Shown one piece after another: positions 3,156 to 58,338 of a stretch of DNA of 64,000 nucleotides. This DNA is from a virus, in IMG/VR virus record IMGVR_UViG_3300032286_001304, positions 1 through 64,000 of that record; one strand, given 5' to 3'. The notes under the pieces were generated by a model that saw nothing but the letters and a program-made list of their open reading frames with translations, searched no databases and was not told where the DNA came from. How positions within the stretch are numbered: position 1 is the first letter of the stretch; every line of letters starts with the position of its first letter. The position numbers and the translations under genes are program-made.

Positions 3156-3647
3156 AAAAAAAGTATTTTAAATCAAATTCCTAATGAAAAACTTCAAACT
3201 CTATTTGATAATAATAATTCTATAAGTTCTATTTTAGGAGAGCTTAATCTAAGCAAATCATGTCGTCATTCAAGAAAAATTCTTAAAAAAAGAATGGTAG
3301 ATTTAGATTTAACAAGATTTAATGAATTAAGAGCTAAAAAATCTCCATTTAAAAGTTTTTATAAAAAATATAAAGACGAAGATATGTTTAAGTTAAATTC
3401 GGATGTTGACGTAAAAACGATAAAAAGAAGGTTTTGCGAAAAAAATCTGCCATTAAAATGCGAATGTTGTAAGATTGAAAATAAATGGAATAATAAACCG
3501 CTAACTTTACAATTTGATCATAAAAATGGAAATAATAAAGATAATAGATTAGAAAATTTACGATGGCTTTGCCCCAATTGTCATAGCCAAACAGAAACTT
3601 ATACTGGGAAGAATAACAAAAAAATGGTGTCTCCGGTTGGACTCTAA
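3153..3647 (+). CDS. Free-standing HNH homing endonuclease
   Basis: Start taken at 3153 (MKKSILNQIPNEK), where the coding pattern begins and where the shared endonuclease leader element ends; the open frame extends to 2970 but crosses the tRNA remnant. About residues 5-50 look like a helix-turn-helix region. The HNH domain lies at the C-terminus: CECC and CPNC zinc ligands, the central FDHKNGNNKDNRLENLRWLC motif with catalytic His, then CHSQ. It is plus-strand in a minus-strand genome, and its last 23 nt and stop lie inside the tRNA-Arg gene on the other strand. Such genes spread by cutting homing-site-free genomes; the target here may be the tRNA cluster. Confidence 0.85.
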   Translation: MKKSILNQIPNEKLQTLFDNNNSISSILGELNLSKSCRHSRKILKKRMVDLDLTRFNELRAKKSPFKSFYKKYKDEDMFKLNSDVDVKTIKRRFCEKNLPLKCECCKIENKWNNKPLTLQFDHKNGNNKDNRLENLRWLCPNCHSQTETYTGKNNKKMVSPVGL

Positions 3648-5070: not shown

Positions 5071-5239
5071 TTCTCTTATTGGAATCGAACCAATTATATT
5101 TAGTGGCAACCATATCACCCAAGAGATTTCGGTTTTTTATCTCATAATCCGGCTCGTTAATTCCGGCTTTCTGTGAGTTATGCTTGACAGGAAAAACCGT
5201 GCATAATCCTTATATGATTACTACATATTTATTATGAGA
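5071..5239 (-). ncRNA. Candidate RNA: long pseudoknot plus tRNA-like 3' domain
   Basis: The 3' part (5126-5071) has an acceptor-like stem TCTCTT/AAGAGA, a D-arm-like segment with TGGTT, and a clear T-arm ATTGG-TTCGATT-CCAAT, but no anticodon arm and no encoded CCA. Just upstream, TCTCATAAT (5239-5231) pairs with ATTATGAGA (5148-5140), and CGGTTTTT in its loop (5199-5192) pairs with AAAAACCG (5137-5130) beyond the stem, forming a pseudoknot. Pseudoknots next to an anticodon-less tRNA domain recall tmRNA or viral tRNA-like structures, but no tag frame is seen. A decayed tRNA is the simple alternative. Confidence 0.45.
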
Positions 5240-5250
5240 CAAATTATTAA

Positions 5251-5307
5251 AAAAGAACAAAAATTAATATCCCCAGTTTTTAAATAGGGGAGGAAGTGTT
5301 TGATTCA
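5251..5307 (-). ncRNA. Candidate short RNA with CCUCC stretch and terminator hairpin
   Basis: It follows a promoter (5313-5341). The predicted transcript of about 55 nt contains CTTCCTCCCC and ends in the hairpin TCCCC/GGGGA (5270-5291) followed by AATTTTTGTTCTTT. The CCUCC segment could pair with purine-rich Shine-Dalgarno-like sites, but it also forms part of the hairpin. No frame. Confidence 0.45.
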
Positions 5308-5312
5308 CGCCC

Positions 5313-5341
5313 AATCTACATGGGACTATCATAATTGTCAA
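5313..5341 (-). promoter_or_regulatory. Sigma70-like promoter
   Basis: Minus strand: TTGACA, 17 nt, TAGATT, ahead of the short RNA at 5251-5307. Confidence 0.5.
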
Positions 5342-5400
5342 CCAATTCTTTTAAAAAAATTGATAAGATATAATGAAACCCTTTACTCCCTGTAAAATAA

Positions 5401-5488
5401 TTTCAAATAAGAAGAACCAACTTACGTGGCACTTGCTTGGCTTTTTACGGCTCTTCACACTCCACTATGCTTTACTTCTTATTTGAAA
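5401..5488 (-). ncRNA. Candidate structured RNA closed by a 14-bp stem
   Basis: TTTCAAATAAGAAG (5401-5414) is perfectly complementary to 5475-5488. Inside are short hairpins such as CCACGTAAGTTGG on the minus strand. The design (14-bp closing stem, multi-hairpin interior, U-rich flank) mirrors the element at 4055-4174 but the sequences differ. Unknown function. Confidence 0.5.
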
Positions 5489-5574
5489 AATTGAAAAGAT
5501 TTTGAAAGAACGACATTACATCTAACTCTTCTTACCTTACCCGATTCCACTCTGGAAATCAAGGATTTTTTTCA

Positions 5575-5593
5575 TTTTTTTTTTTTTTTTTTT
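5575..5593 (+). repeat. Homopolymer of 19 Ts
   Basis: An uninterrupted T19 follows a short T-rich stretch, just past the end of the small basic gene at 5596-5751. Its length is likely to vary between copies or be a sequencing weak point. It would read as poly(A) in the minus-strand transcript. Confidence 0.8.
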
Positions 5594-5595
5594 GA

Positions 5596-5751
5596 TTAAG
5601 CGCAAAGGTCTCGCATATCAATCTCCGAAGAAAAGTTTTTATTTTCGATTTTATTTTTTTTGCTCTTAATTATCTTAGTTGGAAGAGCTTTTACTTTTGA
5701 CCTTGGTTTGTAGATTTTATTTAATTTTTTCTTTAATTTGTGGGTTTTCAT
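5596..5751 (-). CDS. Small basic protein, 51 aa
   Basis: Starts MKTHKLKKKLNKIYKP at 5751 and stops at TAA 5596. About a third of the first 40 residues are Lys or Arg, which suggests nucleic-acid binding. It lies between the RNA region and the first run of small genes, separated from the next gene by 39 nt. No Shine-Dalgarno sequence, as in most genes here. Could be spurious, but the codon pattern is coherent. Confidence 0.45.
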   Translation of the reverse strand: MKTHKLKKKLNKIYKPRSKVKALPTKIIKSKKNKIENKNFSSEIDMRDLCA

Positions 5752-5790
5752 GAAATAAAGTTTGTATTTTATAATACAGATATTTTAATA

Positions 5791-5970
5791 TTAATCTTCT
5801 ATTGAAATTGTTTTTATTCCAAAATTACGATGAAATATAACAAATATATTTATTGGATCTTCAAATGCACCATGAATTTTTGTTTCAGATGGGAATTTAG
5901 ATAGAATATCTATCAACTCTTGAGTTGTCTTGATATTTAGATATTCCTCCGTTACTATCGGTATTTTCAT
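5791..5970 (-). CDS. Small hypothetical protein, 59 aa
   Basis: Start MKIPIVTEEYLNIKT at 5970. The segment TTQELIDILSKFP followed by short beta-like stretches is a pattern seen in many small phage proteins of unknown function. It overlaps the 3' part of the upstream gene by 74 nt in another frame, more than is usual here, so one of the two frames may be mis-ended. Confidence 0.5.
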   Translation of the reverse strand: MKIPIVTEEYLNIKTTQELIDILSKFPSETKIHGAFEDPINIFVIFHRNFGIKTISIED

Positions 5971-6097
5971 AATTATGAAATAATTTATTGTTTAGTTCAA
6001 TAGACGCATAATCACGCGCATCGCTTGTGGAAAATCCATTTTTCATGCAATCATTCCATATTTGCATAAATTTTATCTTATATATATAATCTATCAT
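5897..6097 (-). CDS. Small hypothetical protein, 66 aa
   Basis: Start MIDYIYKIKFMQIWND at 6097, 4 nt after the upstream stop. Residues 1-45 look like a helical protein (NGFSTSDARDYASIELNNKL); the last 25 residues are low in regular structure and overlap the next gene. A frameshift near 5970 that joins or shortens these frames is possible. Confidence 0.45.
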   Translation of the reverse strand: MIDYIYKIKFMQIWNDCMKNGFSTSDARDYASIELNNKLFHNYENTDSNGGISKYQDNSRVDRYSI

Positions 6098-6101
6098 TTT
6101 T

Positions 6102-6323
6102 TTATTTTTTATAATCAGCCCATAAATGCCATACTTGCCAATCGTTATCTTCTCTTACCTTCTCTACAAAAGGATATGCTTTTTCACCAAAAAAATCAAG
6201 TAATTTTTCTACTTTTTTTTCGATACTCCATGAATCCCAAGTTTTATTATCAATAGCAAGTAAAAATTGATGTCTAACATATCCTTCTTCTACTGGAAAG
6301 TTTGCTTCTGGTTTTTTAATCAT
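6102..6323 (-). CDS. Hypothetical protein, 73 aa
   Basis: Start at 6323 (MIKKPEANFPVEEGYVRH), because the 18 upstream codons would run through a terminator hairpin. Trp-rich C-terminus (NDWQVWHLWADYKK). Four nt separate it from the next gene. Unrecognised. Confidence 0.6.
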   Translation of the reverse strand: MIKKPEANFPVEEGYVRHQFLLAIDNKTWDSWSIEKKVEKLLDFFGEKAYPFVEKVREDNDWQVWHLWADYKK

Positions 6324-6328
6324 ATTCA

Positions 6329-6361
6329 AACAAGATAAATGCGGTTTTAAGGATGACCGCA
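6329..6361 (-). terminator. Possible rho-independent terminator
   Basis: On the minus strand TGCGGT...ACCGCA forms a 6-bp hairpin followed by TTTATCTTGTTT. It lies between the genes at 6388-6573 and 6102-6323. Confidence 0.5.
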
Positions 6362-6387
6362 AACCTTTTTTAACCAAAAATAACTAC

Positions 6388-6573
6388 TTATAGAGGAGTT
6401 ATTAAATTTTTGACGCTTTTTTTATCTTTTACGTCAATCTTTCGCTTATGAGCATCAAATAAATAACGCTTTGTTGCTTCTATAAAATCTTTTGTTTTAG
6501 ATTTATATTCAGCAGAACTACGAATCTTATTTATTCTTTCATCATTATTTAGCTTTTCTTTTTCTTTTTTCAT
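6388..6573 (-). CDS. Small charged protein, 61 aa
   Basis: Lys/Glu/Asp-rich helix former (MKKEKEKLNNDERINKIR...). It lies 4 nt from the upstream gene and is followed by a terminator-like hairpin. Unrecognised. Confidence 0.55.
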   Translation of the reverse strand: MKKEKEKLNNDERINKIRSSAEYKSKTKDFIEATKRYLFDAHKRKIDVKDKKSVKNLITPL

Positions 6574-6577
6574 TTTA

Positions 6578-6766
6578 TTATGAGTTATTTTCTTTTACAC
6601 TAAATCCATATTTAGCAAGAGATTCACGGTCTTTTTTATTTTTTGCTCCAATAAGTTTCCATGCACCATTTTCCGTATTAGAAGATGCAATTTTAATAGT
6701 GTCTTTGAAGACAAAATATTTATCAGAGCAATTAATGAGTGATGTAGTTGTTTTTGTGTTTTGCAT
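6578..6766 (-). CDS. Small hypothetical protein, 62 aa
   Basis: Begins MQNTKTTTSLINCSDKYFV. Its middle (IKIASSNTENGAWKLIGAKNK) could form a small beta sheet. It is tightly packed between the thioredoxin gene (5 nt) and the next small gene (4 nt), which supports an operon. Unrecognised. Confidence 0.55.
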   Translation of the reverse strand: MQNTKTTTSLINCSDKYFVFKDTIKIASSNTENGAWKLIGAKNKKDRESLAKYGFSVKENNS

Positions 6767-26460: not shown

Positions 26461-26498
26461 GATTTTTATAAAAAATAAGTCAAAAAGCATAATTTTAT

Positions 26499-26517
26499 GT
26501 GTAATACCATATATATG
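26499..26517 (+). promoter_or_regulatory. Shared 5' element of endonuclease genes (LAGLIDADG copy 1)
   Basis: GTGTAATACCATATATATG, ending in the start codon. Matches GTGTAATACAATATA at 28777 and GTGTAATCCATTGTATATG at 32573-32555. Confidence 0.45.
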
Positions 26518-27450
26518 AAAAGACCCAAAACGACACAAGATCAGATAAAATTTATTCTAGAAAATTATCCAGATAATGGAGCTATTTTTTGCAGCGAAAA
26601 AACTGGAATTCCTATAAGAAGGGTAAAAAAAATTTGTTATAAAGCTGGAGTAAAATTAACCAAGGAATCTAGGATAAAAATTCAAAGAAAATTACTCAAC
26701 CTTGCGCATAAACAACGAGAAATAAACAAAAATAATTTTGACTTATACGATGTGAATCCAGGTTTATTTATAAATCCAACAACTCCAGAAGTTGCTTATA
26801 TTTTAGGCTTACTATGGGCAGATGGATACATTAGAGAGGTTGGGTCAATTGCGATTGAAGCTGTAAAAAGTGATATAGATATTTTTTATCCTATTTTTTT
26901 AAAAACTGGAAGTTGGCTAATAAATTATAGAAATCGTTCCAACAGAAAACCACAGGGAAGAATTCATAAAAATAATATAATTATTGGAAAATTTTTAATT
27001 GAAAACGATTACACTTCTAAATCCACTGCATCAGCTTGTAAAATTCTTTCTAAAATTCCAGAACATCTTAAACATTATTGGTTTAGAGGGTTATTTGATG
27101 GAGATGGGTGCTTTTATATCAATCAAAAACAAAATCTAATTCAATTATCTATCGCAAGCTCTTTTGAGCAAGATTGGGGGTTTTGTGAAAAAATTATGGA
27201 AAAATTAAATATTAAATATACAATTAAGAGAAGTCAGCAACTACAAAAAGGAAAAATAAATAAATTTTCTGTTATAAGAGTAACAAATAGGAAAGGTATA
27301 AAGATATTTGGAGATTATATTTATAACAATTACGAAAACGACAAAATTGGTTTGCCTAGAAAATATAATAAATTTAAAGAAATAAAACAAATGATAGGGA
27401 CTAGTGATGGTCTGTCAAGTCCAACGAGCGACCGTTTAAATGCATCTTAA
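26515..27450 (+). CDS. LAGLIDADG homing endonuclease
   Basis: Start at 26515 (MKRPKTTQDQIKF), the ATG that closes the shared endonuclease leader. Residues 5-55 form a helix-turn-helix-like region. Two LAGLIDADG helices are present: AYILGLLWADGYI and HYWFRGLFDGDGCFY, each supplying an acidic residue, so it should act as a monomer with a pseudo-symmetric active site. Plus-strand in a minus-strand neighbourhood; its last 50 nt overlap the 3' end of the convergent phosphoesterase gene, so that its C-terminal tail is simply the antisense of that gene. Confidence 0.88.
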   Translation: MKRPKTTQDQIKFILENYPDNGAIFCSEKTGIPIRRVKKICYKAGVKLTKESRIKIQRKLLNLAHKQREINKNNFDLYDVNPGLFINPTTPEVAYILGLLWADGYIREVGSIAIEAVKSDIDIFYPIFLKTGSWLINYRNRSNRKPQGRIHKNNIIIGKFLIENDYTSKSTASACKILSKIPEHLKHYWFRGLFDGDGCFYINQKQNLIQLSIASSFEQDWGFCEKIMEKLNIKYTIKRSQQLQKGKINKFSVIRVTNRKGIKIFGDYIYNNYENDKIGLPRKYNKFKEIKQMIGTSDGLSSPTSDRLNAS

Positions 27451-28055: not shown

Positions 28056-28295
28056 TTAATTATTATCTAAGAATCTGATGGCATTACGGATATCCCAAGC
28101 TGAATGTAATGCTTCAAGCGACTTAGTAATAAGATCATCCTTAGTCATCTCAACGGTTTTCCCATGATTAGTTGTGAAGACTTTATATTGACCATGTTCA
28201 TCTTGTTCTACCCAGCCCTCATTATCCATATCCCATCCATCATGGAGAATACGAAAACGAAATACGGTTTTATTTTTATTATTATCCTCGCTCAT
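28056..28295 (-). CDS. Hypothetical protein, 79 aa
   Basis: Start at 28295 (MSEDNNKNKTVFRF), overlapping the end of the kinase gene by 14 nt. Asp/Gly/Trp-rich (HDGWDMDNEGWVEQDEHGQ), then a C-terminal helix (ALHSAWDIRNAIRFLDNN). One nt from the phosphoesterase gene. Unrecognised. Confidence 0.55.
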   Translation of the reverse strand: MSEDNNKNKTVFRFRILHDGWDMDNEGWVEQDEHGQYKVFTTNHGKTVEMTKDDLITKSLEALHSAWDIRNAIRFLDNN

Positions 28296-28740
28296 TCCAG
28301 TTAACATAAGTGATTTTGCCACCCTCGTCAAGCGGAATCGTGAAATTTTCGTGTTGGCGTTTGATTACGTCGATTGGAACCTTTCTTGCGCGTTTTTCAT
28401 TATTTAAAATACATTGTTCAAGAGGTGTCTTAAAAACAACCCACTCTTTATTGTAATTAAATGCGGTTGCAAGACGATTCCAAATCAAACGATTCTTTTT
28501 ATTATAATTAGTATTATCAATAATCAAATTATTTCCTAATGACATCAAATATGACGCCATGTGCTCTAAAGTTTGAAATACTTGGTAATTTTTATCTTGA
28601 TTAGACTCATCACCAGTCATTATCAAACGCATCTTATCTGCATTTAGATAAATGTATTGTGGATTATCTTGTAAAAATTTCTTAGCCCAAGTGCTTTTAC
28701 CTGCACCAGAAATACCCACTAAAAGAATTATATTAGACAT
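28282..28740 (-). CDS. Polynucleotide 5'-kinase (P-loop kinase domain)
   Basis: 152 aa with Walker A GISGAGKST (residues 9-17), the catalytic-Asp region LNADKMRLIMTGD, NLIIDNTNYNKKNR and the lid RARKVPIDVIKRQ, as in the kinase domain of T4 polynucleotide kinase. The 3'-phosphatase domain is absent; a separate phosphatase would have to supply it. With the RNA ligase 2 kb away it suggests repair of tRNAs cut by host anticodon nucleases. Confidence 0.82.
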   Translation of the reverse strand: MSNIILLVGISGAGKSTWAKKFLQDNPQYIYLNADKMRLIMTGDESNQDKNYQVFQTLEHMASYLMSLGNNLIIDNTNYNKKNRLIWNRLATAFNYNKEWVVFKTPLEQCILNNEKRARKVPIDVIKRQHENFTIPLDEGGKITYVNWNERG

Positions 28741-28776
28741 AGATTTTTAGTTTGAATTTATAAATAATGATTTTTA

Positions 28777-28802
28777 GTGTAATACAATATACATCCATCA
28801 TG
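28777..28802 (+). promoter_or_regulatory. Shared 5' element of endonuclease genes (LAGLIDADG copy 2)
   Basis: GTGTAATACAATATA then ACATCCATCATG, following TTTTTA as in the HNH copy. Confidence 0.45.
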
Positions 28803-29795
28803 AAAAAATTAAGCAAAAATATAAAAGCTGAAGAAATCGAATACCTAAAAAGTAATTATGGAAAAATATTTGGGAGCGAAATTTGCAAACAATTAAAATG
28901 GTCTTCATCAAAACTTGAAAGGGCTACGAGAGCACTTGGGCTAAAGAGTAAGTTGCAAAAAAGAAAAAATAATGCAAACATAGAACTAATTTCAAAATTA
29001 GAAGATCCAGAAATACTTTACATCTTGGGGTATATTTGGGCTGACGGATATATACAGAGAAAAAAGAAAATTAAAAATAATAAAAAAATAGATAACGATT
29101 TTTTATTTCAAATGGCAAAACTAACAATTGTTAGCGAAGATTTTAAAGATATAGAAAATTATTTTAGTAAATTTGGAAAATATTCAATAAAGCACGAAAA
29201 AAGAGGAGATTTTAAGCCGACTTCTACTTGGTTTCTATGCGATACTACGTTTTGTGAATGGTTATGTAAATTCAATTATCATGAAAAATCATTAAAGGGG
29301 CCAGAAAAAATATTAAATGCTATCCCAGAAAATCTTCGCCATTACTGGTGGAGAGGATATTTTGATGGTGATGGTCATATTATATTGGCTACCAATTTTA
29401 GATCTTCCGTTTCGATTTCTGCTAATTTTGATTATAACTGGAGTTTTTTAAATTTGTTCTTGAATGGTATTGATTTTAAAATTAATAAAATAACAAATAA
29501 AAAAGGTCACAAACACTCTATAGCTTCTTGTAATTCTTTTAAATCAAAAAAATTTTTAGACTATATTTACCAAAATGTAGAAAAAGATAATATAGGACTT
29601 AAAAGAAAACGAGAAAGGTATTTTTTGTCTAAGCAATATATTTTTAAAGATAAAAAAAATAAAAATAAATATGTATATTATGTAGAAAGGAGAAATAAAT
29701 GGTCACTTTCTATTAAAAAACTTGGTGTCCAAATTTTATTTGAAACAGAAGCAGAGGCCATAAAGAAAAGAGACGAAATTATAAATAATCTTTAA
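28800..29795 (+). CDS. LAGLIDADG homing endonuclease with AP2-like tail
   Basis: Start at 28800 (MKKLSKNIKAEEI). Helix-turn-helix-like N-terminus (residues 10-50), then LYILGYIWADGYI and HYWWRGYFDGDGHI, and a C-terminal KYVYYVERRNKWSLSIKK...FETEAEAIKKRDE segment resembling the AP2/integrase DNA-binding fold. Related in layout to the gene at 26515, so the two probably share ancestry. Inserted between the polynucleotide kinase gene and 29779-30747, whose last 17 nt it overlaps on the opposite strand. Confidence 0.88.
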   Translation: MKKLSKNIKAEEIEYLKSNYGKIFGSEICKQLKWSSSKLERATRALGLKSKLQKRKNNANIELISKLEDPEILYILGYIWADGYIQRKKKIKNNKKIDNDFLFQMAKLTIVSEDFKDIENYFSKFGKYSIKHEKRGDFKPTSTWFLCDTTFCEWLCKFNYHEKSLKGPEKILNAIPENLRHYWWRGYFDGDGHIILATNFRSSVSISANFDYNWSFLNLFLNGIDFKINKITNKKGHKHSIASCNSFKSKKFLDYIYQNVEKDNIGLKRKRERYFLSKQYIFKDKKNKNKYVYYVERRNKWSLSIKKLGVQILFETEAEAIKKRDEIINNL

Positions 29796-30747
29796 GTTTG
29801 ACATAAGACGAAAGAAGATCTTGATCTACCATAGAAAATAATCTTTCATAAATTGGACGAAAAACTCTTCCATCAATATCTGGTTCATTGATTAACTCAG
29901 AAATTTGTCTATGAATTTCTCTATCCAAATCACCTTCAATTTTAAATCCGCGTAGACCAATTTCTGCATAATCATAACCATCACTCCAGTCATTTCTATT
30001 TTGTTGTAAATAATGCGCGAGATACAAATATTTATCTTTTGAAAGAATCGCTTCAGTCATCTCATGAACATTAGGCATTCCATTTGGAAAAGTCAAGTCA
30101 TATTTCTTAATTAATTCAAGAAATAACTTAGTCTTTTCCGCTTCTTTCTTTTTCTTTTCCTCTTCTAATTCCTTTGCTCGTTCAGCCGCTTGACGCTTTT
30201 GCACCTGCTCTTCAACCTTTCTTTTGAACCCTGACCAGTCGGGCAGAGAAGGAGCGTAAACGCGACATTTTGATTTTAATTCGGTGACAAATTCGCAATC
30301 CATCCAATCAGGAATGGTTTTCCGCGATTTAGGATTTTTACAACGAGTTTCAATCCCCATTAGTTTGATCAAATCAATTAAACCATTGAACGAGGCAAGA
30401 TTATTCTTTGCGATTTCTAAATTTTCAGCATAGATCGCCTTATCTTTTTCCCAAATTTCATCAATAAGTTCAATTTTATCCACAAATTGATATGAGTCAT
30501 AAACTCCTTGCGATGCTTCGCGTAACTTTTCTTCTTTACGAATTCCCCAAATCGAGGTAGATTCATATTGGTATTCAAATTGGTAGGAGTAATAAAGATA
30601 AGATTTATATGGAATAATTTTCCAATCTTTTTGCGCTGCCGCTTTATATTTTTCCACTTCGTTAGCGGATTCAGTTATCGCGTCAAGCAAATAAGAAACT
30701 GCTAACTTTCCCTTATAGGAAAGTTTTTCATCATCGTATTGTTTCAT
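29779..30747 (-). CDS. Hypothetical protein with central coiled coil, 322 aa
   Basis: Tyr-rich N-terminal third, a charged coiled coil at about residues 185-215 (RAKELEEEKKKKEAEKTK), and a C-terminal helical domain. Located between the RNA ligase C-half (3 nt) and polynucleotide kinase, so it may belong to the RNA repair operon, but no family is recognised. Confidence 0.65.
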   Translation of the reverse strand: MKQYDDEKLSYKGKLAVSYLLDAITESANEVEKYKAAAQKDWKIIPYKSYLYYSYQFEYQYESTSIWGIRKEEKLREASQGVYDSYQFVDKIELIDEIWEKDKAIYAENLEIAKNNLASFNGLIDLIKLMGIETRCKNPKSRKTIPDWMDCEFVTELKSKCRVYAPSLPDWSGFKRKVEEQVQKRQAAERAKELEEEKKKKEAEKTKLFLELIKKYDLTFPNGMPNVHEMTEAILSKDKYLYLAHYLQQNRNDWSDGYDYAEIGLRGFKIEGDLDREIHRQISELINEPDIDGRVFRPIYERLFSMVDQDLLSSYVKLKDYL

Positions 30748-30750
30748 TTT

Positions 30751-31590
30751 TTATTTATTTTGTTCCGCTACTGATTCTTGCGTTTCAATATCCACTTCCC
30801 CTCTATCGTGTTCGGCAGATTCTTGGCTTAAAAAGGCCAGACTTTTTAATTTATATACATCAGCATAATCATTAAATTTACGGACTACAACACCTTCTCT
30901 TGGAACTTTATTGACACATAATGGACAATCCATTTCTGTATATTTCGCAATTAAATGATTTAGCAGTTCTTCACGCCAAATATCTAAATCCCTATCATCC
31001 TTTGATTCAAGCCACTTAGTAGGCGCAACTAAATCTTTCGCATAACCAATATAATGATATGGAACTGTCTTTAGATTGTATTTCTTGCAATAAAGAGCAA
31101 TTTGCTGTTCGGTAAATTCAAAAACTTCACCCGATGGATTTGTATAGGTTATGCGATAAATAGCATAGTCATGTTGACCAGTTTTTGTGCCATAATCAAA
31201 ATCCTTTTGAATCCACTTGCAATTAGGAAGTTGCCCATAAATCTCTACATAAAAACTCATTCCATCTTTTAGGAATGGATTAAGTTCTTTGGCAACCAAG
31301 CCCCAAATATCTACATCATAGAAAGATTCTGATTTTTTATCAGCATAAGCGTTTTTAATTACTTTACGTGAACTCCATAGATAATCATAATTAGTATCTA
31401 CGATATTCACACCTAATTTCTTTAGAATCTTCTCGTAAAAATTCAATGATTTTTTACATAGAACTTTAGAGAAAACCCCGCTAGTATTATGAATTAGAAT
31501 TCCGTTAGCATAGAAATTACCAGTTGAACTTACGGTTAAGTCATAGCGATCATTTCGCTTATCCAACTTTTTAATTGATTTTATTTTCAT
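30751..31590 (-). CDS. RNA ligase C-terminal half preceded by C-intein
   Basis: 279 aa. Residues 1-35 are a C-terminal split-intein half: RYDLTVSS (block F region) and the splice junction ILIHN followed by Thr36. From Thr36 the protein is the rest of a nucleotidyltransferase RNA ligase: TSGVFSKVL completes motif I, then YDYLWSSRKV, FYVEIYG (motif IIIa), EGVVVRK (IV) and DVYKLKS (V). On its own it lacks the catalytic Lys; with the product of 32595-33545 it would be spliced into a complete ligase. The start overlaps the end of the intervening endonuclease gene by 20 nt. Confidence 0.85.
   Translation of the reverse strand: MKIKSIKKLDKRNDRYDLTVSSTGNFYANGILIHNTSGVFSKVLCKKSLNFYEKILKKLGVNIVDTNYDYLWSSRKVIKNAYADKKSESFYDVDIWGLVAKELNPFLKDGMSFYVEIYGQLPNCKWIQKDFDYGTKTGQHDYAIYRITYTNPSGEVFEFTEQQIALYCKKYNLKTVPYHYIGYAKDLVAPTKWLESKDDRDLDIWREELLNHLIAKYTEMDCPLCVNKVPREGVVVRKFNDYADVYKLKSLAFLSQESAEHDRGEVDIETQESVAEQNK
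31486..31590 (-). other. C-terminal half of split intein
   Basis: 35 codons ending ANGILIHN, with terminal Asn and penultimate His in place and Thr as the +1 extein residue. The block F position that is usually His in HNFYANG reads GNFYANG. Confidence 0.82.
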
Positions 31591-32557
31591 AAATTGATTT
31601 TATTTTTTCATATAGAAGTAAGAATTTATCTTCTCTGTTTAGTAGATGTAACTCTCTTTCCCATATCGTGACAACACTAAACCCTTTTTCTCTAGCTAAG
31701 TCAATTTTATTTTTATCTTTTTCCCAGATTTCTTTTGCAGTCTTGCGTGAAACTGGCATAATATCATTTTCTTTGTAAAGTTCAGGATCAGCGTGCCAAA
31801 TTGTTCCATTTATTTCGACTAAAACCTTTGAATTAGAGAGATAAATATCAAAAACATATCTTCCCATTTTAAATTGAGAAGAAAATGGAACTTGATTATC
31901 CACTAAGATTTCTTGTATATCTTTTTCCAAAGAACTTTCATATAGTTGAGTATTATTTTTTAATGACTGCTCGCTCCTTATTGTTTTTAATAGCCATTCC
32001 TCTTTTTCTTCTATTGTTTTGGATGACCATGCTATTTTTGAATCTATTGATCTTTTTTCTCTTATGGAGCATCCGAAATTCTTTAAAAATACAGACTCCA
32101 TTTTTTCAAGAAAATTCTTTATTTTAAATGGATTATCGACCCCATATTTCAAAATATAGGTTTTTTTTCTTTTTTCATTGAACTCTTTTACCTTAAAAGT
32201 TTGATCAACCCCATATCTTATAAGATTCGTTTTTTTTGATTTTTTAGCTGCCAAAACACATGCTTCACTATGCGTTCTTGGAATTATCCCAAAATAGTCT
32301 ATTAAAAATTTGGTAATTTTGTATGGAATTCCATATTTTTCTTTAAAATCCGGCAAACTATATAGTAGCGTTGAATAAGCATAATGAAAAATTTCTTTTG
32401 TCGCTATCTCTTTGAATGTCTCTAAATAAATCAAATATCTTAAAGACTTGGTATCCATCCCTCTTTTCTTTCTCTCCCATCTTAGATATGAAGCGAGTTG
32501 ATTGTTTTCATTGATAATTGTTTTTTTAAAGGGGCAAATATATTTTTGAGTATCCAT
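31571..32557 (-). CDS. Vsr-like homing endonuclease inside the fractured gene
   Basis: Start at 32557 (MDTQKYICPFKKT), the ATG that ends the shared endonuclease leader. Residues about 105-170 carry repeated DNA-binding modules (RYGVDQTFKVKEF; KYGVDNPFKIKNF; NFGCSIREKRS). The C-terminal domain fits the Vsr/EDxHD fold: FDIYLSNSKVLVEINGTIWHADP, then EIWEKDKNKIDLAREKGFSVVTIWE. This type was first described in fractured genes with split inteins. It lies between ligase halves, 38 nt from the N-half and overlapping the C-half. Confidence 0.85.
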   Translation of the reverse strand: MDTQKYICPFKKTIINENNQLASYLRWERKKRGMDTKSLRYLIYLETFKEIATKEIFHYAYSTLLYSLPDFKEKYGIPYKITKFLIDYFGIIPRTHSEACVLAAKKSKKTNLIRYGVDQTFKVKEFNEKRKKTYILKYGVDNPFKIKNFLEKMESVFLKNFGCSIREKRSIDSKIAWSSKTIEEKEEWLLKTIRSEQSLKNNTQLYESSLEKDIQEILVDNQVPFSSQFKMGRYVFDIYLSNSKVLVEINGTIWHADPELYKENDIMPVSRKTAKEIWEKDKNKIDLAREKGFSVVTIWERELHLLNREDKFLLLYEKIKSIYENKIN

Positions 32558-32573
32558 ATACAATGGATTACAC
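32555..32573 (-). promoter_or_regulatory. Shared 5' element of endonuclease genes (Vsr-like copy)
   Basis: Minus strand GTGTAATCCATTGTATATG, ending in the start codon at 32557. Same family as the elements at 26499 and 28777. Confidence 0.45.
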
Positions 32574-32594
32574 AAAAAATTCTAAAATTATACT

Positions 32595-32906
32595 TTATTC
32601 TGAATTTTTGCTGATAAGAACTTCGTCCCCATTTTTCAGAAGATCGGCTCTTCTGTAACATTTTAAATCCTTCATCCAAACTGGGTTATTACCCGTTATC
32701 TCTATCTTCCGCCCATCCTCTAACTCCATCTCATACCAATCATCACTATCTTTATAAAAATAATGATCTGTAATTTTGGCCCATACCTCTTTCTCAAGTT
32801 CTACGTCATAAGCCAAAACATTTCCAAATAATTTATTATCAACTACTTGGCCTATCGTGATATCCCCGTATTCAAGGGTTTTTATAATCGTTTCCTTATC
32901 CACACA
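32595..32906 (-). other. N-terminal half of split intein
   Basis: 103 codons beginning with Cys. Block A and the block B neighbourhood are recognisable, but the usual TxxH His of block B is Asn (TGNNPVW). Confidence 0.82.
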
Positions 32907-33545
32907 ACCATGAAGTTTTTCAGAAATTGAGATAAAATCGTCTGGATGTAATGAAGATAAATTCTTTTTTAGCGGAGCCGTATCAATATGTAGTCTAAAT
33001 TGATTATCTACAAGTTTAGACTCTCTCTTTACTTTTCCTTTTTTGTTTTTAGAATTATTTTCTATATTTTGGGCGCGACGTAATGCATCATAATTGATAT
33101 ATTTATCGCAAATAAATGTATCTCCATAATGACTAAATTCAGTTCCTACCTCAAAATCTCCTATTGAAGCCTTTATTTTCTTGGAGGATAACCAATCAAC
33201 AATGGATTGAATTGGAACAATATAACCTTCAGAAAAGATTCCGCGAAGTTTGGTTGTTTTAACTCTTGATACGGATGGGAAAAATCCTTTTATGCTTTTA
33301 TCCGCATTTAATTCGGATTTGGAATAAGAATTAGACCAACTTAGATATTCCGAGTTTAAACGAGATTCCAGAGGAAAATAAATATAAATATCATCGGTTT
33401 TTGCATTTAGTCCTGTGATTACGTTCTGCCCATCAATAAAGGCAATTTGCAAACTGTCAGCGGATGGATGCTTACGCAATTCACCCAACTTAACTACTTT
33501 AGCAAGATAGTTTTTATGTTCGGTTTGAATAGATAATTTGCTCAT
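32595..33545 (-). CDS. RNA ligase N-terminal half followed by N-intein
   Basis: 316 aa. Residues 1-213 are the front of an RNA ligase: an N-terminal OB-like domain (KLGELRKHPSADSLQIAF; TTKLRGIFSEGYIVPI) as in the DRB0094/Rnl5-type ligases, ending in SEKLHG with catalytic Lys210. Cys214 begins a 103-residue N-intein (CVDKETIIKT; NNPVWM; LLKNGDEVLIS). The ligase is interrupted exactly inside motif I (KLHG / TSG), and resumes at 31485. A promoter at 33555-33583 leaves only a few nt of leader. Confidence 0.87.
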   Translation of the reverse strand: MSKLSIQTEHKNYLAKVVKLGELRKHPSADSLQIAFIDGQNVITGLNAKTDDIYIYFPLESRLNSEYLSWSNSYSKSELNADKSIKGFFPSVSRVKTTKLRGIFSEGYIVPIQSIVDWLSSKKIKASIGDFEVGTEFSHYGDTFICDKYINYDALRRAQNIENNSKNKKGKVKRESKLVDNQFRLHIDTAPLKKNLSSLHPDDFISISEKLHGCVDKETIIKTLEYGDITIGQVVDNKLFGNVLAYDVELEKEVWAKITDHYFYKDSDDWYEMELEDGRKIEITGNNPVWMKDLKCYRRADLLKNGDEVLISKNSE

Positions 33546-33554
33546 GTTAGATTT

Positions 33555-33583
33555 AACTTAGTTTATTCCGGTATTAAAGTCAA
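33555..33583 (-). promoter_or_regulatory. Promoter of the RNA ligase N-half
   Basis: Minus strand TTGACT, 17 nt, TAAGTT; predicted start about 3 nt before the ATG at 33545. Confidence 0.5.
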
Positions 33584-33813
33584 TTATTTTCTTCCGTAAA
33601 TTTATAAAATTCCTCATTAAATAACGCATCAATTGCCCGTCGCTGTCGCTCATCTTGTTCTGATGGGTTATTGTCTGGTCTATGACCAATTGGGTTATTT
33701 AATGCAATTTTATACCACGGATCACCGAATGGATTATTTTTCATAACCTCTCGCTGGAAACTCAAGCAAGACACTCTTAATTTTTCTGATTTATCTAAAA
33801 AACTATGTTTCAT
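33580..33813 (-). CDS. Small hypothetical protein, 77 aa
   Basis: Begins MKHSFLDKSEKLRVSC. Contains PFGDPWYKIALNNPIGHRPDNNP and a charged end (EQDERQRRAIDALFNEEFYKF). 8 nt after the next upstream gene; its last codons overlap the RNA ligase promoter. Unrecognised. Confidence 0.6.
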   Translation of the reverse strand: MKHSFLDKSEKLRVSCLSFQREVMKNNPFGDPWYKIALNNPIGHRPDNNPSEQDERQRRAIDALFNEEFYKFTEENN

Positions 33814-42803: not shown

Positions 42804-42960
42804 GTTTTATGATTATCTTATCAGTATCTTTTATTGCATTACCAGCTAATGCTCTAATGACAGACTCGGCTCCTTTGAATGCATATTCCCTTGTCAATTC
42901 GGGAACAGTATAAATAAATGTTTTAGTCCCGTTCCTATGTCTAATGACTTTAAGTGGCAT
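42778..42960 (-). CDS. Small hypothetical protein, 60 aa
   Basis: Begins MPLKVIRHRNGTKTFIY with a basic end (KIIIKHAKTRKTN). Overlaps the end of the DNA polymerase gene by 11 nt and the next gene by 26 nt. Unrecognised. Confidence 0.55.
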   Translation of the reverse strand: MPLKVIRHRNGTKTFIYTVPELTREYAFKGAESVIRALAGNAIKDTDKIIIKHAKTRKTN

Positions 42961-45562
42961 TTTCTAGCTCCTTTCTGACCACACTTGCTTTCAATACGGT
43001 CGGAACCTCTTGTTCGACAATTTCTTTAACGAAATATATCTCATCTGTTTCACTAGTTACTTTTTTGGATAGGTGTATCACGGCGATTGAGTCTTCCTTC
43101 AAATTAACGAGTTCGTTCAGCAAGTCAAGCTGGAATAGCATCACAACCAAAGAATCTGTGTCATCTTTTATTGTGTATCTGACATAATCTTTTTTATTCT
43201 TAGAAATTCTTTTTTCTATTTCTTTTATTTGACAAATACATTTATAATCTCCTTGTGGCAGAGCTTTTAATGTTTTTAAATCATGCAATCCGATTATATG
43301 TTTACTATAAATAGATTTTAGCGAACCAGAATAAGAAAATCCAACATATTCATTTTCAGCAATCCATTTTGTAAGTTCTTCAAATCTTGAATTTCTAATA
43401 TATTTTTGCCAAAATGGAATATAATTCTTTTTTATTGTATCTCTTCTTGATTCTTTTATAAAAGGTTTTCCTTTTAAGTCTTTTAAATCTTCAACACAAG
43501 CCTTTATACAAGCCTCTAGGTTATAATTATATTTTTCACCAATGCTATGAATGATTGGCTTTTCCTTTGGAGTTAAAAGTTTATATAATTCAAGTTGAGC
43601 AATTAATTTATTTCTAGTGCTATCTTTGTTATATTCATCAAAGCAACCAGACATAATTAGGGAAGACGCCAAATTAATTGGAATTCCTGCTTCTGTTATT
43701 CCAGAAAATAAAGAGAATTTATTTTCAACAGCAATTTTAAATTCATGGATTTTATCAATTGCTTTTCCAGCAACACCCTTTACATTTGAAAGACCAATTC
43801 TGATTGCCCCATTTTCAATCACATGGTCATCTTTTGAGCAAGAAAGAGATGGAGGTAGTAATTTTATTCCTCTATCATCCATTTCCTTTTTTATTCTTGA
43901 TACATTTATAATTCTATCTTTTGGAGAATCATAACGAGTCATCTTCAAGCACGCCCAATAAAACTCGACTGGATATTTTATCTTTAACCATATCGTTTGC
44001 GCTGTAATCATCCCATACGAGATGGCGTGACATTTCGCAAATTGATACCCACCAGACTCTTCCGCTATTTTTAGAAGAAGATCTACAACAGTTTTTTCTA
44101 TACCATTCTTTTCGCAAATTTCTTCAATTTCTTTTTTTACTTTTGGAATCTCATCAATTTTCTTTTTACCAAGAGTTCTTCTAGCCATTTCAGCTTTATT
44201 TGGGTCCATTCCTACATTAATCAACATCTTTAGATATTGTTCTTGAAACAAACAAATTCCGCCAGTTGGTTTAAGAACATCATCAATTACAGGATGAATA
44301 GTTTCATAAACTGAATTATGAACATAATTTAAATATTTCTTTAATCCGCTTATAGCACCGGGACGACTAATAGCAAGAGCATCTGCAATTTGAATAAAAT
44401 TCTTTGGTTTTATTTGAATTGCAATTCTTCCTTGAGCCTCAGACTCAAATTGGAATATTCCATACATATCTTTGGCATCTTGAAGCCATTGATAAATAAT
44501 ATTATCTTCGCAATTTATATCTTCGACCTTGATTCCAGCCGCTTTACAACAATCATAAACGACAGATGCGGTTTTTAGTCCTAGTTCGTCAAATTTAAGA
44601 GTAAGCTCTTGTGCGGTATACATATCACAAGAATTTGAAATGGCATATTCCCCTGTTTCTTCACCTTTTGTAAGCTGAAGGGGCATTAAATTAGCTATTT
44701 CATCATGTGAAATCAAAACAGCGGAAGCATGGCATCCGACTGATTTTTTAAGACCTCTTAACTTTAATGACATCCTGATTACTTCAGAATGATTCTTAGC
44801 CCATTGTTTTAACTTTACATTTTCTTTATTTTTGTCATTTGAAAGGGCATCACCTAAGTCTTCGACTATGCCGAATTGCTTATCGACGAGGTCGCTTACA
44901 TCATTTGCTTCGCTTTCAGAAGATTCCTCGTAACATTTTAAGACTTCTTTTAATAGAATCTTTGTAGTTAGGGAGCCAGTAGTTAGAAGTTTAGCCGTTC
45001 TATTTGGATATTTTTGATTTAGATATTCAATAACCTCACTTCTTCTGTAAAAACATAAATCTTGGTCAATATCGGGAGCAAGAGAACCGTCGATGTATTT
45101 TATTCCATCAATAAAACTTGTTTTTGCGCGGGCTGGATTTAGAAATCGGGTAAAGAAAAGTTCATTCTTAATTGAGTCAATCTTAGTAATTCCTACTAAA
45201 TAACAAACAATACTTGAAGCTACTGAACCACGACCTGGACCAGTTGGAATTTCATTTCTACGGCAAAAGTCACAAATATCCCAAACCATCAAGATGTAAT
45301 CAATAAATCCAAGAGTCTCAATAACATTTAACTCTTCTTTTATTTGATTGGCATACTTTTGATTTAGCGATTTATCTATTTTGCCAACTATTTTATCACG
45401 AAATCCCTTTCTGCATAGTTCGGTTAAAAACTCTTTATTAGAAACTGATTCTGGCAGACCAACATATTCGTATTGAATCTTTGAAGGTTTGAATTCTGGT
45501 AAACGAACTCCGTTAAAAAGAACAGGAATTTCGTATGAAGTAAATTTTTTGGAAAAAGACAT
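42950..45562 (-). CDS. dnaE: DNA polymerase III alpha subunit, polymerase part without PHP
   Basis: 870 aa C-family replicative polymerase. Palm motifs: GPGRGSVASS (108-117), FLNP (140-143), PDIDQD with catalytic Asp164/Asp166, and KFDELGL with Asp325; then CHASAVLIS (277-285), finger and thumb regions, and an OB-fold near residues 780-840. The PHP domain that starts normal DnaE proteins is missing; a PHP-like protein is encoded two genes upstream. Product of the chromosomal replisome plan (order PHP, exonuclease, polymerase). The stop overlaps the next gene by 11 nt. Confidence 0.92.
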   Translation of the reverse strand: MSFSKKFTSYEIPVLFNGVRLPEFKPSKIQYEYVGLPESVSNKEFLTELCRKGFRDKIVGKIDKSLNQKYANQIKEELNVIETLGFIDYILMVWDICDFCRRNEIPTGPGRGSVASSIVCYLVGITKIDSIKNELFFTRFLNPARAKTSFIDGIKYIDGSLAPDIDQDLCFYRRSEVIEYLNQKYPNRTAKLLTTGSLTTKILLKEVLKCYEESSESEANDVSDLVDKQFGIVEDLGDALSNDKNKENVKLKQWAKNHSEVIRMSLKLRGLKKSVGCHASAVLISHDEIANLMPLQLTKGEETGEYAISNSCDMYTAQELTLKFDELGLKTASVVYDCCKAAGIKVEDINCEDNIIYQWLQDAKDMYGIFQFESEAQGRIAIQIKPKNFIQIADALAISRPGAISGLKKYLNYVHNSVYETIHPVIDDVLKPTGGICLFQEQYLKMLINVGMDPNKAEMARRTLGKKKIDEIPKVKKEIEEICEKNGIEKTVVDLLLKIAEESGGYQFAKCHAISYGMITAQTIWLKIKYPVEFYWACLKMTRYDSPKDRIINVSRIKKEMDDRGIKLLPPSLSCSKDDHVIENGAIRIGLSNVKGVAGKAIDKIHEFKIAVENKFSLFSGITEAGIPINLASSLIMSGCFDEYNKDSTRNKLIAQLELYKLLTPKEKPIIHSIGEKYNYNLEACIKACVEDLKDLKGKPFIKESRRDTIKKNYIPFWQKYIRNSRFEELTKWIAENEYVGFSYSGSLKSIYSKHIIGLHDLKTLKALPQGDYKCICQIKEIEKRISKNKKDYVRYTIKDDTDSLVVMLFQLDLLNELVNLKEDSIAVIHLSKKVTSETDEIYFVKEIVEQEVPTVLKASVVRKELENAT

Positions 45563-45563
45563 G

Positions 45564-46217
45564 TTAAATTTCTAGTAGCCAAATAAGTTTTTTATGTATT
45601 TCTACATTTTGGATTATATCATAGTCTGCTGTATGCAAACGGCTTTCATCAACCGTGATTCCGAACTCCTTACTCATTGTGCTAATGCTAGTTTTAAGAC
45701 CTTTCTCAACATAGTCAACAAGTCTATACTGGTGAGCAAGAAAATTATTCGATGAACTAGTATCTAATTTTATTTGTTTTTTATACGCTTTGCTTAAAGC
45801 AATCGTATCGTAAGTTTTAAAAGGTTGATATAGATAATCGTAAATAGGTTTCATTCCTAATGCTCTGCGCCAAGCATTAAGAATCATTGAATCATAACCA
45901 AGAAAATTTTGTGCAGCAATCTTATATTTAGGATTATGGAGATATGATTCAACTATCTCAAGAATTTCTTTTGGGTCTCTAGCTTTGGACTTGTATTCAT
46001 CGTAATTGAATTTTGTGATAGCTGCCGCGCCTGCACTCATACGGAGGTTTTCCCACCAAACGAAGTAGTCGTGAAATTCTTTTTGGCCGTCTAAGGTCCA
46101 AACGGAAAAAGAAACTTGAAAAGGTTTTGCATAAACAGTATTCAGGGACTCTGTTTCCGTGTCCAAGGTTATATACTCTTGTGTTTTATTATATCTTAAA
46201 AGTTCAACGCCAATCAT
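45564..46217 (-). CDS. DEDDh 3'-5' exonuclease (proofreading, DnaQ-like)
   Basis: Start at 46217 (MIGVELLRYNKTQ), forming an ATGA overlap with the PHP gene; an ATG at 46235 would overlap it more. 217 aa with Exo I LDTETESL, Exo II NFLGYDSMIL and Exo III HTADYDIIQNVEIH, giving the DEDDh set. It lies between PHP and polymerase genes and 1 nt from the latter, so it should be the proofreading partner, mirroring domain order in PolC. Confidence 0.85.
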   Translation of the reverse strand: MIGVELLRYNKTQEYITLDTETESLNTVYAKPFQVSFSVWTLDGQKEFHDYFVWWENLRMSAGAAAITKFNYDEYKSKARDPKEILEIVESYLHNPKYKIAAQNFLGYDSMILNAWRRALGMKPIYDYLYQPFKTYDTIALSKAYKKQIKLDTSSSNNFLAHQYRLVDYVEKGLKTSISTMSKEFGITVDESRLHTADYDIIQNVEIHKKLIWLLEI

Positions 46218-46993
46218 TTTGTTAATTCCTTCCATTTTTCAAAACTAAAACTATCCGAACATAACCATCTTAGTTCTGGTTTTGAAAATTTACTTCTTTC
46301 TTGAATTGCCCTGTAAGTGATATATGAGGAACAATCACTTGATTTTTCGTAATAGCAAGTTTTTGTGTTTACTATGTTTCCTCCCCATTTTTCAATAACT
46401 TCATCAATTAATGGAGCAAAGGGTAAATCTGATTCAATCTCTTTAAAGAAAACTACATCATCTTTTGGCACGAAACCAAACTCTGGAACAATTGCAGAAT
46501 CCATTACCAAACGGTTTTTAGCAAGAAAACTATCGACATATGGAAAAGCTAATAATAGATTTTCAGTCCATAAGTTACGTAATTGTTTGAAATCATACCT
46601 CATTTTATAGTATTTATTCTCACGATTGCTGTAACAACTTGTATATATTTTGCCTAAATCATTGTAAGCCTTGCCATTTTTAGCAAAAATAATTATCTTA
46701 TGTTCTTGTTTTAGGCTTTTGTCGGAATGATTGTTTATCGAATCATCTGTAAGCCACATCTGTAAACCGAAAATTAGTTGTAGATTTAATTTATTTGCAT
46801 TTTTAAGAGCTTCACGAAAAGATTCAAAATTATTACTTATGTAGTAAACTTCTTTAAGCCCAGATTCTTTTGCTAATTTTAAAAAAGACTGTGGGCCATT
46901 CTCATCTTTACATTCATCTGGAGACCAAGCAGTTAAAATACTAAGCAGACTTGTATGGTCATAAAATAATGGAATTATCTCTTTATTTTTCAT
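46214..46993 (-). CDS. Separate PHP domain of DNA polymerase III alpha (degenerate)
   Basis: 259 aa aligning by eye with the N-terminal PHP domain of DnaE: a start strand with YDHTSLLS where the metal-binding HLHVHTEYS normally lies, LKLAKESGLKEVYYIS, an LNLQLIFGLQMW strand and KIIIFAKNGKAYNDL. Most metal ligands, including the H-x-H pair and the Asp-His-Gly loop (here SNN), are lost, so it is unlikely to be an active nuclease; it probably structures the polymerase. Gene order PHP-exonuclease-polymerase. Confidence 0.75.
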   Translation of the reverse strand: MKNKEIIPLFYDHTSLLSILTAWSPDECKDENGPQSFLKLAKESGLKEVYYISNNFESFREALKNANKLNLQLIFGLQMWLTDDSINNHSDKSLKQEHKIIIFAKNGKAYNDLGKIYTSCYSNRENKYYKMRYDFKQLRNLWTENLLLAFPYVDSFLAKNRLVMDSAIVPEFGFVPKDDVVFFKEIESDLPFAPLIDEVIEKWGGNIVNTKTCYYEKSSDCSSYITYRAIQERSKFSKPELRWLCSDSFSFEKWKELTK

Positions 46994-57440: not shown

Positions 57441-57469
57441 TTCTTACACCAATTCCTAAGTTTAGTCAA
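57441..57469 (-). promoter_or_regulatory. Promoter for 57414 and exonuclease
   Basis: Minus strand TTGACT, 17 nt, TAAGAA. The -35 region TTGACTAAACTTAGGAATT is nearly identical to that at 36655. Its position fixes the start of the gene below it. Confidence 0.55.
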
Positions 57470-58338
57470 GGTTTGTTTTCAGGAAAATTTCTGGCCGATA
57501 AATTATTTAATCGTAAAAAATTATCTACCGCTTTAGCAGCCTCGATTTCCGTATCAAATGATCCCAAAAATTTTCGACGCTTTTCAAACCATATCATTGC
57601 ATCATATTTTTTTCGATGTTCTCGAACACCATAATATGGAGACTTTCTGATTTTTTTTGATCGAAATGATTTTAATTTATCTTCGTCCCAGATATCGCTA
57701 GGAAAATTTATTGGCTCTAATTTGTTTCTAATTAAATAAAAGTCATAAGCGCGGGCGGCAGCCTCTTCTGTTAAATATGTTTCGGTAAGTCTTTTTCCTA
57801 AATTGTATATTTCGCATCTCCATTTCGATCCATCTTTAACTACGCCCATAAATTTTGATGTTTTTTCTCTATTTCTAGACAGCCCTTTTCTTGTTTTGGA
57901 ATTAAATTGGCCGCGTTTTGGTCTTTTTAATATTTCTGGATTTATTTTTGCCGCTCTTTTATACCCATTCGCAGCATTGATTATATGATCCAAACTTTTG
58001 GGAACACCTTTTAATCTTTTACTAATTTTGTCTTTTGTTTCCTTCAGTAATGACCCACCATTACCACCCTCTAAAATATTATATCCATTTGGCAATCTAG
58101 AATTAAAAAACGAAATATAATATTTTTCGCTATTATCTAATTGATTTTGATCTGAACAATCGCAAATTTTTTGAATAGAAAAATTTTCTTTTCCATATTT
58201 TTTAATAGCCCTAGTTATAGCCATTGTATTTTTATTACTATCGGAGCAATGGCGATTCCATCTTTTATACAATGTTTCTATAGTTTGGCCTATGTAAATC
58301 TTTCCGTTTATATTATTAGTTATTTTATAAATAATCAT
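57466..58338 (-). CDS. GIY-YIG homing endonuclease with two AP2 domains
   Basis: 290 aa. GIY-YIG catalytic module at residues 1-90 (MIIYKITNNINGKIYIGQT, Tyr and Arg present), a NUMOD3-like segment (KDKISKRLKGVPKS), then two AP2 DNA-binding domains (SKFMGVVKDGSKWRCEI and SPYYGVREHRKKYDAMI). The start overlaps the stop of the SLOG gene as ATGA, so unlike the plus-strand endonucleases it is translationally coupled to a host gene. No shared leader element found before it. Confidence 0.88.
   Translation of the reverse strand: MIIYKITNNINGKIYIGQTIETLYKRWNRHCSDSNKNTMAITRAIKKYGKENFSIQKICDCSDQNQLDNSEKYYISFFNSRLPNGYNILEGGNGGSLLKETKDKISKRLKGVPKSLDHIINAANGYKRAAKINPEILKRPKRGQFNSKTRKGLSRNREKTSKFMGVVKDGSKWRCEIYNLGKRLTETYLTEEAAARAYDFYLIRNKLEPINFPSDIWDEDKLKSFRSKKIRKSPYYGVREHRKKYDAMIWFEKRRKFLGSFDTEIEAAKAVDNFLRLNNLSARNFPENKP

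Follow-up and report, generated by a model that had tools for sequence, protein, structure and literature searches.

We examined a window of 64,000 nucleotides (bases 1-64000 of the 97,940-base IMG/VR virus record IMGVR_UViG_3300032286_001304) and conclude that it very probably carries a phage gene for an RNA ligase that a mobile split-intein element has broken in two. Trans-splicing would restore the ligase, and the endonuclease would make the insertion a homing element, of a lineage that appears specialised on motif I of ligases. The locus consists of three minus-strand genes placed head to tail in the order N-half, endonuclease and C-half (Table 1). The N-half follows the ligase up to SEKLHG, which contains Lys210 of motif I, and continues as an N-intein, while the C-half begins with a C-intein and resumes the ligase at TSGVFSKVL. 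An initial annotation, made from the sequence alone, had described this anatomy and breakpoint, and all of its elements were located on the minus strand. The 457 amino acids that it gave for the spliced product equal our count (213 + 244 = 457), the predicted junction peptide being SEKLHGTSGVFSK. The insertion point, SEKLHG^TSGV (the caret marks the position of the intein), lies in motif I, the most conserved catalytic motif, as had been proposed. The endonuclease has 328 amino acids from its ATG, or 334 from an upstream TTG, and overlaps of the type seen between its end and the start of the C-half are also present in loci L001, L006 and L066. Promoter-like sites around the endonuclease gene did not rise above shuffled sequences in a promoter and terminator scan.

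The RNA ligase family phrog_968 matches both halves, the N-half with 1.9e-28 (residues 8-213) and the C-half with 1.4e-11. With the Pfam RNA_ligase model (cut-off 27) the joined exteins score 28.0, above the cut-off, and the C-half alone 20.6, below it; the PHA02142 OB-fold model gives 27.8 bits on the N-extein against a cut-off of 27. The N-terminal OB domain is like that of Naegleria/DRB0094 ligases (PF21189, a profile match to 5cot at 1.1e-5 and the fold of 6vt4), and the best solved relative, both by profile (1.1e-5) and by the fold of the N-half model, is Naegleria RNA ligase. The enzyme of Naegleria gruberi (Rnl5 type; 5cot, 6vt4) shares with the window ligase the order of an N-terminal OB and a nucleotidyltransferase domain, but its gene is continuous, whereas that of the window is split, and the phage branch lies far under the cut-off of the equivalog model TIGR02306 (RNA_lig_DRB0094; 22.9 bits, on the N-half only, against 151.15). 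Since this score is so low, we term the ligase only Rnl5-like. Joining the exteins, as foreseen in the initial annotation, rebuilds motif I (KLHG), and motifs III (YVEIYG), IIIa (YRI), IV (EGVVVRK) and V (YKLKS) are all intact. The junction aligns without a gap to the intein-less ligase of Synechococcus phage B23 (44% over the ligase) and to ligases of Lak, Gordonia, Vibrio, Xanthomonas and Bacillus phages, as well as to that of phage Dallas. Judged by these matches, the spliced protein is an Rnl5-like, ATP-dependent RNA ligase (OB plus nucleotidyltransferase) with predicted sealing activity. The catalytic lysine and motifs III-V reside on separate polypeptides, and the earlier statement that neither half would work alone follows from this anatomy; the unspliced halves are presumably inactive. 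Since a polynucleotide kinase gene lies nearby, about 2 kb downstream of the locus, and the window contains four tRNA genes, which are away from the ligase locus, the ligase probably functions with the kinase in RNA (tRNA) repair.

Both breakpoints encode intein halves that score above curated cut-offs. The N-half matches TIGR01445 (intein_Nterm) with 28.8 bits against 24.5, and the C-half TIGR01443 (intein_Cterm) with 27.2 against 15.6, which, together with phrog_968 on both sides, bears out the proposed split intein at motif I. A search of the two halves against phage RNA ligases and known split inteins, suggested at that time, yielded matches for both. Among PDB entries the N-intein matches the DnaE and NrdJ-1 inteins, and for the N-intein part of the AlphaFold2 model of the N-half the match is better to the Npu DnaE split intein (5.5e-5) than to NrdJ-1 (2.7e-3). 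Cys1 (C214), the terminal HN and Thr+1 are all present, and the C-intein start MKIKSIKK is common to many fractured phage genes. In block B (TxxH), the usual His is an Asn in the window (TGNN), a detail to be added to the initial annotation; the position reads TGNN or TSNN in all seven split inteins found at KxHG^TS. The block B His is usual in inteins but not strictly defining, and inteins that lack it are known. Since it is not defining, we assign the window element to the inteins by its other features and the curated models. In an engineered intein, bulky residues at -1 make up for the loss of this His (PMC6333167); the -1 residue in the window is Gly, which is not bulky, and therefore another form of compensation, or slow splicing, would be expected.

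The gene between the halves is matched by the homing endonuclease family phrog_3339 (3.2e-16). A profile of its own family gave I-Bth0305I (3r3p, 1.3e-4) and Vsr (1cw0, 3.5e-4) as top matches, and Foldseek with the AlphaFold2 model (predicted local distance difference test, pLDDT, 90.8; 33-member family alignment) placed 1cw0 (1.3e-4) and 3r3p (2.7e-4) on top, with a TMt of 0.74 to 3r3p. These searches agree with the Vsr/EDxHD-type gene announced between the halves and, as modelled, the endonuclease is of the Vsr/I-Bth0305I fold and putatively of the EDxHD type, with predicted cleavage activity. Among the 33 homologues E248 is invariant and D237, H255, D265 and D281 are kept in at least 90%, which makes these five residues candidates for the EDxHD catalytic positions. 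The N-terminal region carries KYG repeats, and 32 of the 33 homologues have a match to DUF7487. I-Bth0305I, with which the window endonuclease shares the catalytic-domain fold, is a mobile-intron protein, whereas the window endonuclease is encoded by a stand-alone gene between split-intein halves and has a long helical N-terminal region. A further match of the endonuclease, in L398 (a 735-kb uncultured phage), was ruled out as a split-intein locus, with a stand-alone endonuclease and no intein around it.

The same insertion site was found occupied and empty in other phages. The ligase profile gave 42 relatives. The site KxHG[TS] is uninterrupted in 40 of them and fractured in L066, and L070 carries a cis intein there. 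Including L066, six further IMG/VR contigs carry RNA ligases fractured at KxHG^TS, the other five (L271, L272, L274, L350 and L351) having come from the intein-profile scans. They are from other samples, and their N-inteins are 44-53% identical to that of the window; the seven split inteins form one subclade in the tree (support 97). The ligases of mycobacteriophages Dallas (MN062701) and Hannaconda (MN586029), homologous to that of the window, contain a continuous cis intein at the identical residue (QKLHG^C...VLVHN^SS). Dallas has a continuous gene with a 357-amino-acid intein bearing a LAGLIDADG_2 domain, whereas the window has a split gene with a Vsr-like endonuclease; the split-intein profile gives the Dallas intein a weak score (5e-4). 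The arrangement, of which no example in an RNA ligase had been known to the initial annotation, is therefore less rare than it seemed, given these six contigs, the mycobacteriophage cis inteins and more than 50 ligases split at or near motif I. Among named phages, a DNA-level search gave no near relative of the locus, and direct scans of viral and bacterial genome collections with the N-half gave no match.

Some observations on this ligase family stand apart. The intein-bearing ligase is annotated as an RNA ligase in Dallas (MN062701 gp153) and as an HNH endonuclease in Hannaconda (MN586029 gp150), although the Dallas intein carries a LAGLIDADG domain. Gordonia phages Rabbitrun, Neville and Trax had been suspected of bearing an intein from their match lengths, but the translation of Rabbitrun contains a continuous KLHGTS ligase, as does that of Kudefre. 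The cis intein of L070 grouped with the ligase inteins in a first tree; we dropped this placement, its branch being very long (2.57). In L066 the ligase is broken a second time (5157-6698), behind SSRKVIKN; a GIY-YIG gene lies there on the other strand, and a third open reading frame (ORF) encodes the remaining ligase. Neither intein parts nor an Rfam intron were detected at this break. Finally, L057, L061, L062 and L063 have an insertion of about 1.2-1.3 kb at FH[YE]D^T (ligase residues 188/189), which in L057 and L061 contains a LAGLIDADG ORF, no intein halves and no intron known to Rfam.

Viral contigs were scanned with an N-intein profile built from five ligase N-inteins, intein residues only. 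Of the 47 loci recovered, 43 are broken at K-x-[DHEAN]-G (a few of them two residues later), three are broken within a ligase about 24 residues before motif I, and one is cut off. Pooling the scans gave 108 distinct inteins, 51 in ligases (49 at motif I, two near it) and 57 elsewhere, in ribonucleotide reductases, helicases and others. When ranked by a profile trained on only five of the 51, all the ligase inteins came above all 57 others, the first non-ligase intein appearing at rank 52 with 58.7 bits. On the tree, the ligase label needs 2 changes, against a mean of 36.3 after shuffling (0 of 500 shuffles as low). Every ligase intein is split (51/51), and Cys1, HN and a C, S or T at +1 are kept in all of them. 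An intact ORF occupies the gap in 39 of the 51 loci and always belongs to the same endonuclease family (39/39, worst E-value 1.6e-15); in the other 12 the endonuclease is absent or broken (fragments in L272, L274 and L351), and the ligase is still in two genes. The hosts, whose class was read from the junction motif, are RNA ligases of several families, DNA ligases and one unassigned KTDG family. A Pfam check on 49 C-halves returned DNA_ligase_A_M for 21, RNA_ligase for 12 and RNA_lig_T4_1 for 3, the others giving no Pfam ligase match. The inteins were collected by similarity to ligase inteins, and the collection therefore gives no measure of how common ligases are as hosts of phage inteins in general; the claim is only that, in this collection, intein sequence predicts host class. 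Within it, there appears to be an always-split intein lineage specialised on ligase motif I (KxxG^C/S/T) and found almost only there. The N-intein profile matched nothing in bacterial and archaeal genomes and, in named phages, no ligase, its one distant match being an intein-bearing gene of Streptococcus phage GXN1 directly upstream of a capsid assembly gene.

Large phage proteins in L194 (the same as L014), L249, L275 and L283 are interrupted by a split intein that separates the K of EKTDGQ from TDG. They show a ligase-like order of motifs, from which we infer that the four are nucleotidyltransferases, with no Pfam ligase match on the C-half; the two proteins searched more widely had no Pfam or PHROG match, and this may possibly be an undescribed nucleotidyltransferase family. 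A separate set of helicase-like genes is broken after the DE of DE^CH (L004, L005, L008, L010, L012, L158, L159, L189, L206, L231, L234 and L266); many of their split inteins have the MKIKSIKK start, and they form a supported group of their own beside the ligase lineage.

The N-inteins of L366 and L367 are 98% identical (proportion of synonymous differences, pS, 0.30), while their N-exteins are 77% identical (pS 0.74, near saturation), and therefore the intein moved more recently than the host genes diverged. For L275 and L283, the nonsynonymous divergence (dN) is 0.05-0.06 against a synonymous divergence (dS) of 0.53-0.54 in both exteins, and dN is also low in the inteins. By this computation, exteins and inteins of close pairs are evidently under purifying selection. 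Over 43 insertion sites the DNA shares a core, AARnTnSAYGGn^, with free third positions, so that the core mirrors the protein motif; as a common target it is plausible.

We therefore propose that each ligase half would be translated fused to one intein half. The intein halves would then come together, cut themselves out and splice SEKLHG to TSGVF, which would restore motif I in a 457-amino-acid ATP-dependent RNA ligase. The Vsr/EDxHD-type endonuclease would provide the homing activity, cutting at the codons of motif I in ligase genes that lack the intein, after which the cassette of N-intein, endonuclease and C-intein would be copied whole into the cut gene by recombination. Anatomy, homology, occupied and empty alleles at the same site, purifying selection, lineage specialisation and inteins closer to each other than their hosts were computed directly; trans-splicing and DNA cleavage are what we infer. 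Several points weigh against the proposal. Splicing, cleavage and ligation are deduced here from sequence, as are the target and active-site residues of the endonuclease. The block B Asn is combined with a Gly at -1, so splicing could be slow. The N-half model has moderate confidence (70.7), and the linker 160-214 falls outside it. The dN/dS comparison used the simple Nei-Gojobori method, and the window's own pairs, near synonymous saturation, are too divergent for a firm ratio, so that selection is seen mainly in related elements. More tentatively, and on balance doubtfully, an obligately split, endonuclease-linked lineage might have specialised on KxxG, the one motif common to all covalent nucleotidyltransferases, and jumped at this site between paralogous RNA- and DNA-ligase families of phages, making two-piece ligases conditional enzymes whose nick sealing trans-splicing switches on. 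Gating of RNA repair by splicing is possible, its support being the anatomy.

A related view, which we regard as unlikely, is that the split is itself a regulatory device, kept because trans-splicing gates or delays RNA repair in infection and not as a by-product of homing. The position of the lineage at the catalytic motif I would suit such a role, but conserved motifs equally make the best targets for homing. Likewise, the ligase remains split in 12 of the 51 loci, those in which no intact endonuclease is encoded; since re-fusion would need a precise deletion, however, this persistence is expected even without selection. The non-canonical block B could slow splicing, and it has been argued that phage inteins may tune it (PMC5050341). 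Against this, 40 of the 42 ligase relatives live without an intein, and inteins that move between hosts and are more similar than the host genes fit a homing element at least as well. Gene decay, in which the ligase was inactivated by insertion and loss of frame and the two ORFs are remnants, seems very improbable. It does occur at such loci, as the broken endonucleases of L272, L274 and L351 attest, and the window intein lacks the block B His; this loss is nevertheless common to all seven KxHG^TS members, and no ligase motif and no other splicing residue is missing from the window halves. Moreover, dN is well under dS in the exteins and inteins of close pairs, and the ligase halves remain open where the endonuclease is broken or gone.

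An assembly or binning artefact, by which two genes were joined or a continuous gene was misassembled, would have to be reconciled with six more contigs from other samples that are broken at the same residue and, as the 44-53% identity of their N-inteins implies, are not copies of the window; although the window derives from one IMG/VR record, we give this explanation almost no weight. Hardly more credible is an interruption at the RNA level, that is, a self-splicing intron with an endonuclease gene and no protein splicing. The endonuclease insertions without intein halves in the same ligase family (L057, L061-L063) provide a precedent, but Rfam scans of the other inserts in the family detected no intron, and a group I or II intron at the window locus was ruled out, with no Rfam match in 30700-33600 even at E-values up to 1. 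In addition, both junctions encode intein halves above curated models, and the C-half begins at a start codon of its own, with the conserved MKIKSIKK.

The fractured ligase can be compared with systems already described in phages. A study by Dassa et al. (2009, NAR 37:2560) reportedly contains eight fractured enzyme types, and DNA ligase may be among them. Genes fractured by split inteins and accompanied by Vsr-like endonucleases are an established class, as the initial annotation had stated (cited in PMC7090010 and PMC12350094). The phage genes of the Dassa type are, like the window locus, conserved enzyme genes split by an intein with a free-standing Vsr-like endonuclease between the halves; the window differs in its RNA ligase host and in a lineage specialised on motif I of RNA and DNA ligases. 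Tenacibaculum phage PTm1 has an annotated intein-containing split DNA polymerase with a VSR endonuclease, like the window but with DNA polymerase as host, and Pseudomonas phage MIJ3 a split PolB with an HNH endonuclease (PMC6892783). Both cultured phages share with the window a split intein and an endonuclease gene between the halves, that of MIJ3 being HNH. We found no report of a fractured RNA or DNA ligase with a split intein in the open-access literature searched, the word "ligase" is absent from the main text of the mycobacteriophage intein survey PMC5050341, and a split-intein lineage at ligase motif I has apparently not been described before. Discussions of intein insertion sites usually proceed gene family by gene family; in these data a single intein lineage follows a single catalytic motif through RNA ligases of several families and through DNA ligases, and movement of a homing endonuclease between paralogous genes through the short core AARnTnSAYGGn^ becomes testable. 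The matched sets of loci (endonuclease intact, broken or missing, empty site, cis intein) make it possible to study what keeps genes in two pieces. The split-intein toolbox should profit from dozens of new natural examples that differ in their +1 residues and in block B, and our results suggest that annotation can miss ligases encoded by two genes.

Table 1. Features of the fractured RNA ligase locus and the nearby kinase gene, in window coordinates.
Feature	Positions	Strand	Evidence
N-half gene, ligase residues 1-213 plus N-intein, 316 amino acids	32595..33545	-	ORF; phrog_968; TIGR01445; AlphaFold2 model
N-extein with the OB domain and the first part of the nucleotidyltransferase domain, up to SEKLHG (motif I, Lys210)	32907..33545	-	PHA02142 OB-fold; alignment
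Motif I codons KLHG, intein inserted directly behind Gly213	32907..32918	-	sequence; empty site in relatives
N-intein, residues 214-316, Cys1 to NSE and stop (103 amino acids)	32598..32906	-	TIGR01445; PDB DnaE/NrdJ-1 intein matches; N-intein profile
Block B of the intein (TxxH position), TGNN with Asn in place of His	32685..32696	-	sequence
Free-standing putative homing endonuclease gene, EDxHD/Vsr-like, 328 amino acids	31571..32557	-	phrog_3339; family profile; AlphaFold2/Foldseek
C-half gene, C-intein plus ligase residues 214-457, 279 amino acids	30751..31590	-	ORF; TIGR01443; phrog_968
C-intein MKIKSIKK...ILIHN, 35 amino acids	31486..31590	-	TIGR01443; start motif
C-extein from Thr+1 (TSGVFSKVL), motifs III-V	30754..31485	-	alignment with uninterrupted ligases
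20-base overlap of endonuclease stop region (YENKIN and stop) and C-half start (MKIKSIK), different frames	31571..31590	-	sequence
Polynucleotide kinase gene	28282..28740	-	phrog_505 polynucleotide kinase, 4.5e-28

Elsewhere in the window, tail-tip-like genes and many small genes, as judged by eye from the ORFs, mark the source as a likely tailed phage. Two stand-alone LAGLIDADG_3 endonuclease genes (26497-27450 and 28767-29795, both on the plus strand, opposite to the ligase locus) flank the metallophosphoesterase/polynucleotide kinase genes, and the RNA-repair region is therefore crowded with homing genes. A gene resembling DNA polymerase III alpha is, again judged by eye, in pieces, with ORFs at 46214-46993, 45564-46235 (exonuclease-like) and 42950-45562 that overlap or almost touch. 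A GIY-YIG homing-type gene is recognised by Pfam at 57466-58338, a GIY-YIG-like ORF without a Pfam match lies at 61636-62970, and an HNH ORF under the Pfam cut-off (2970-3647) overlaps a tRNA-Arg gene at its end.

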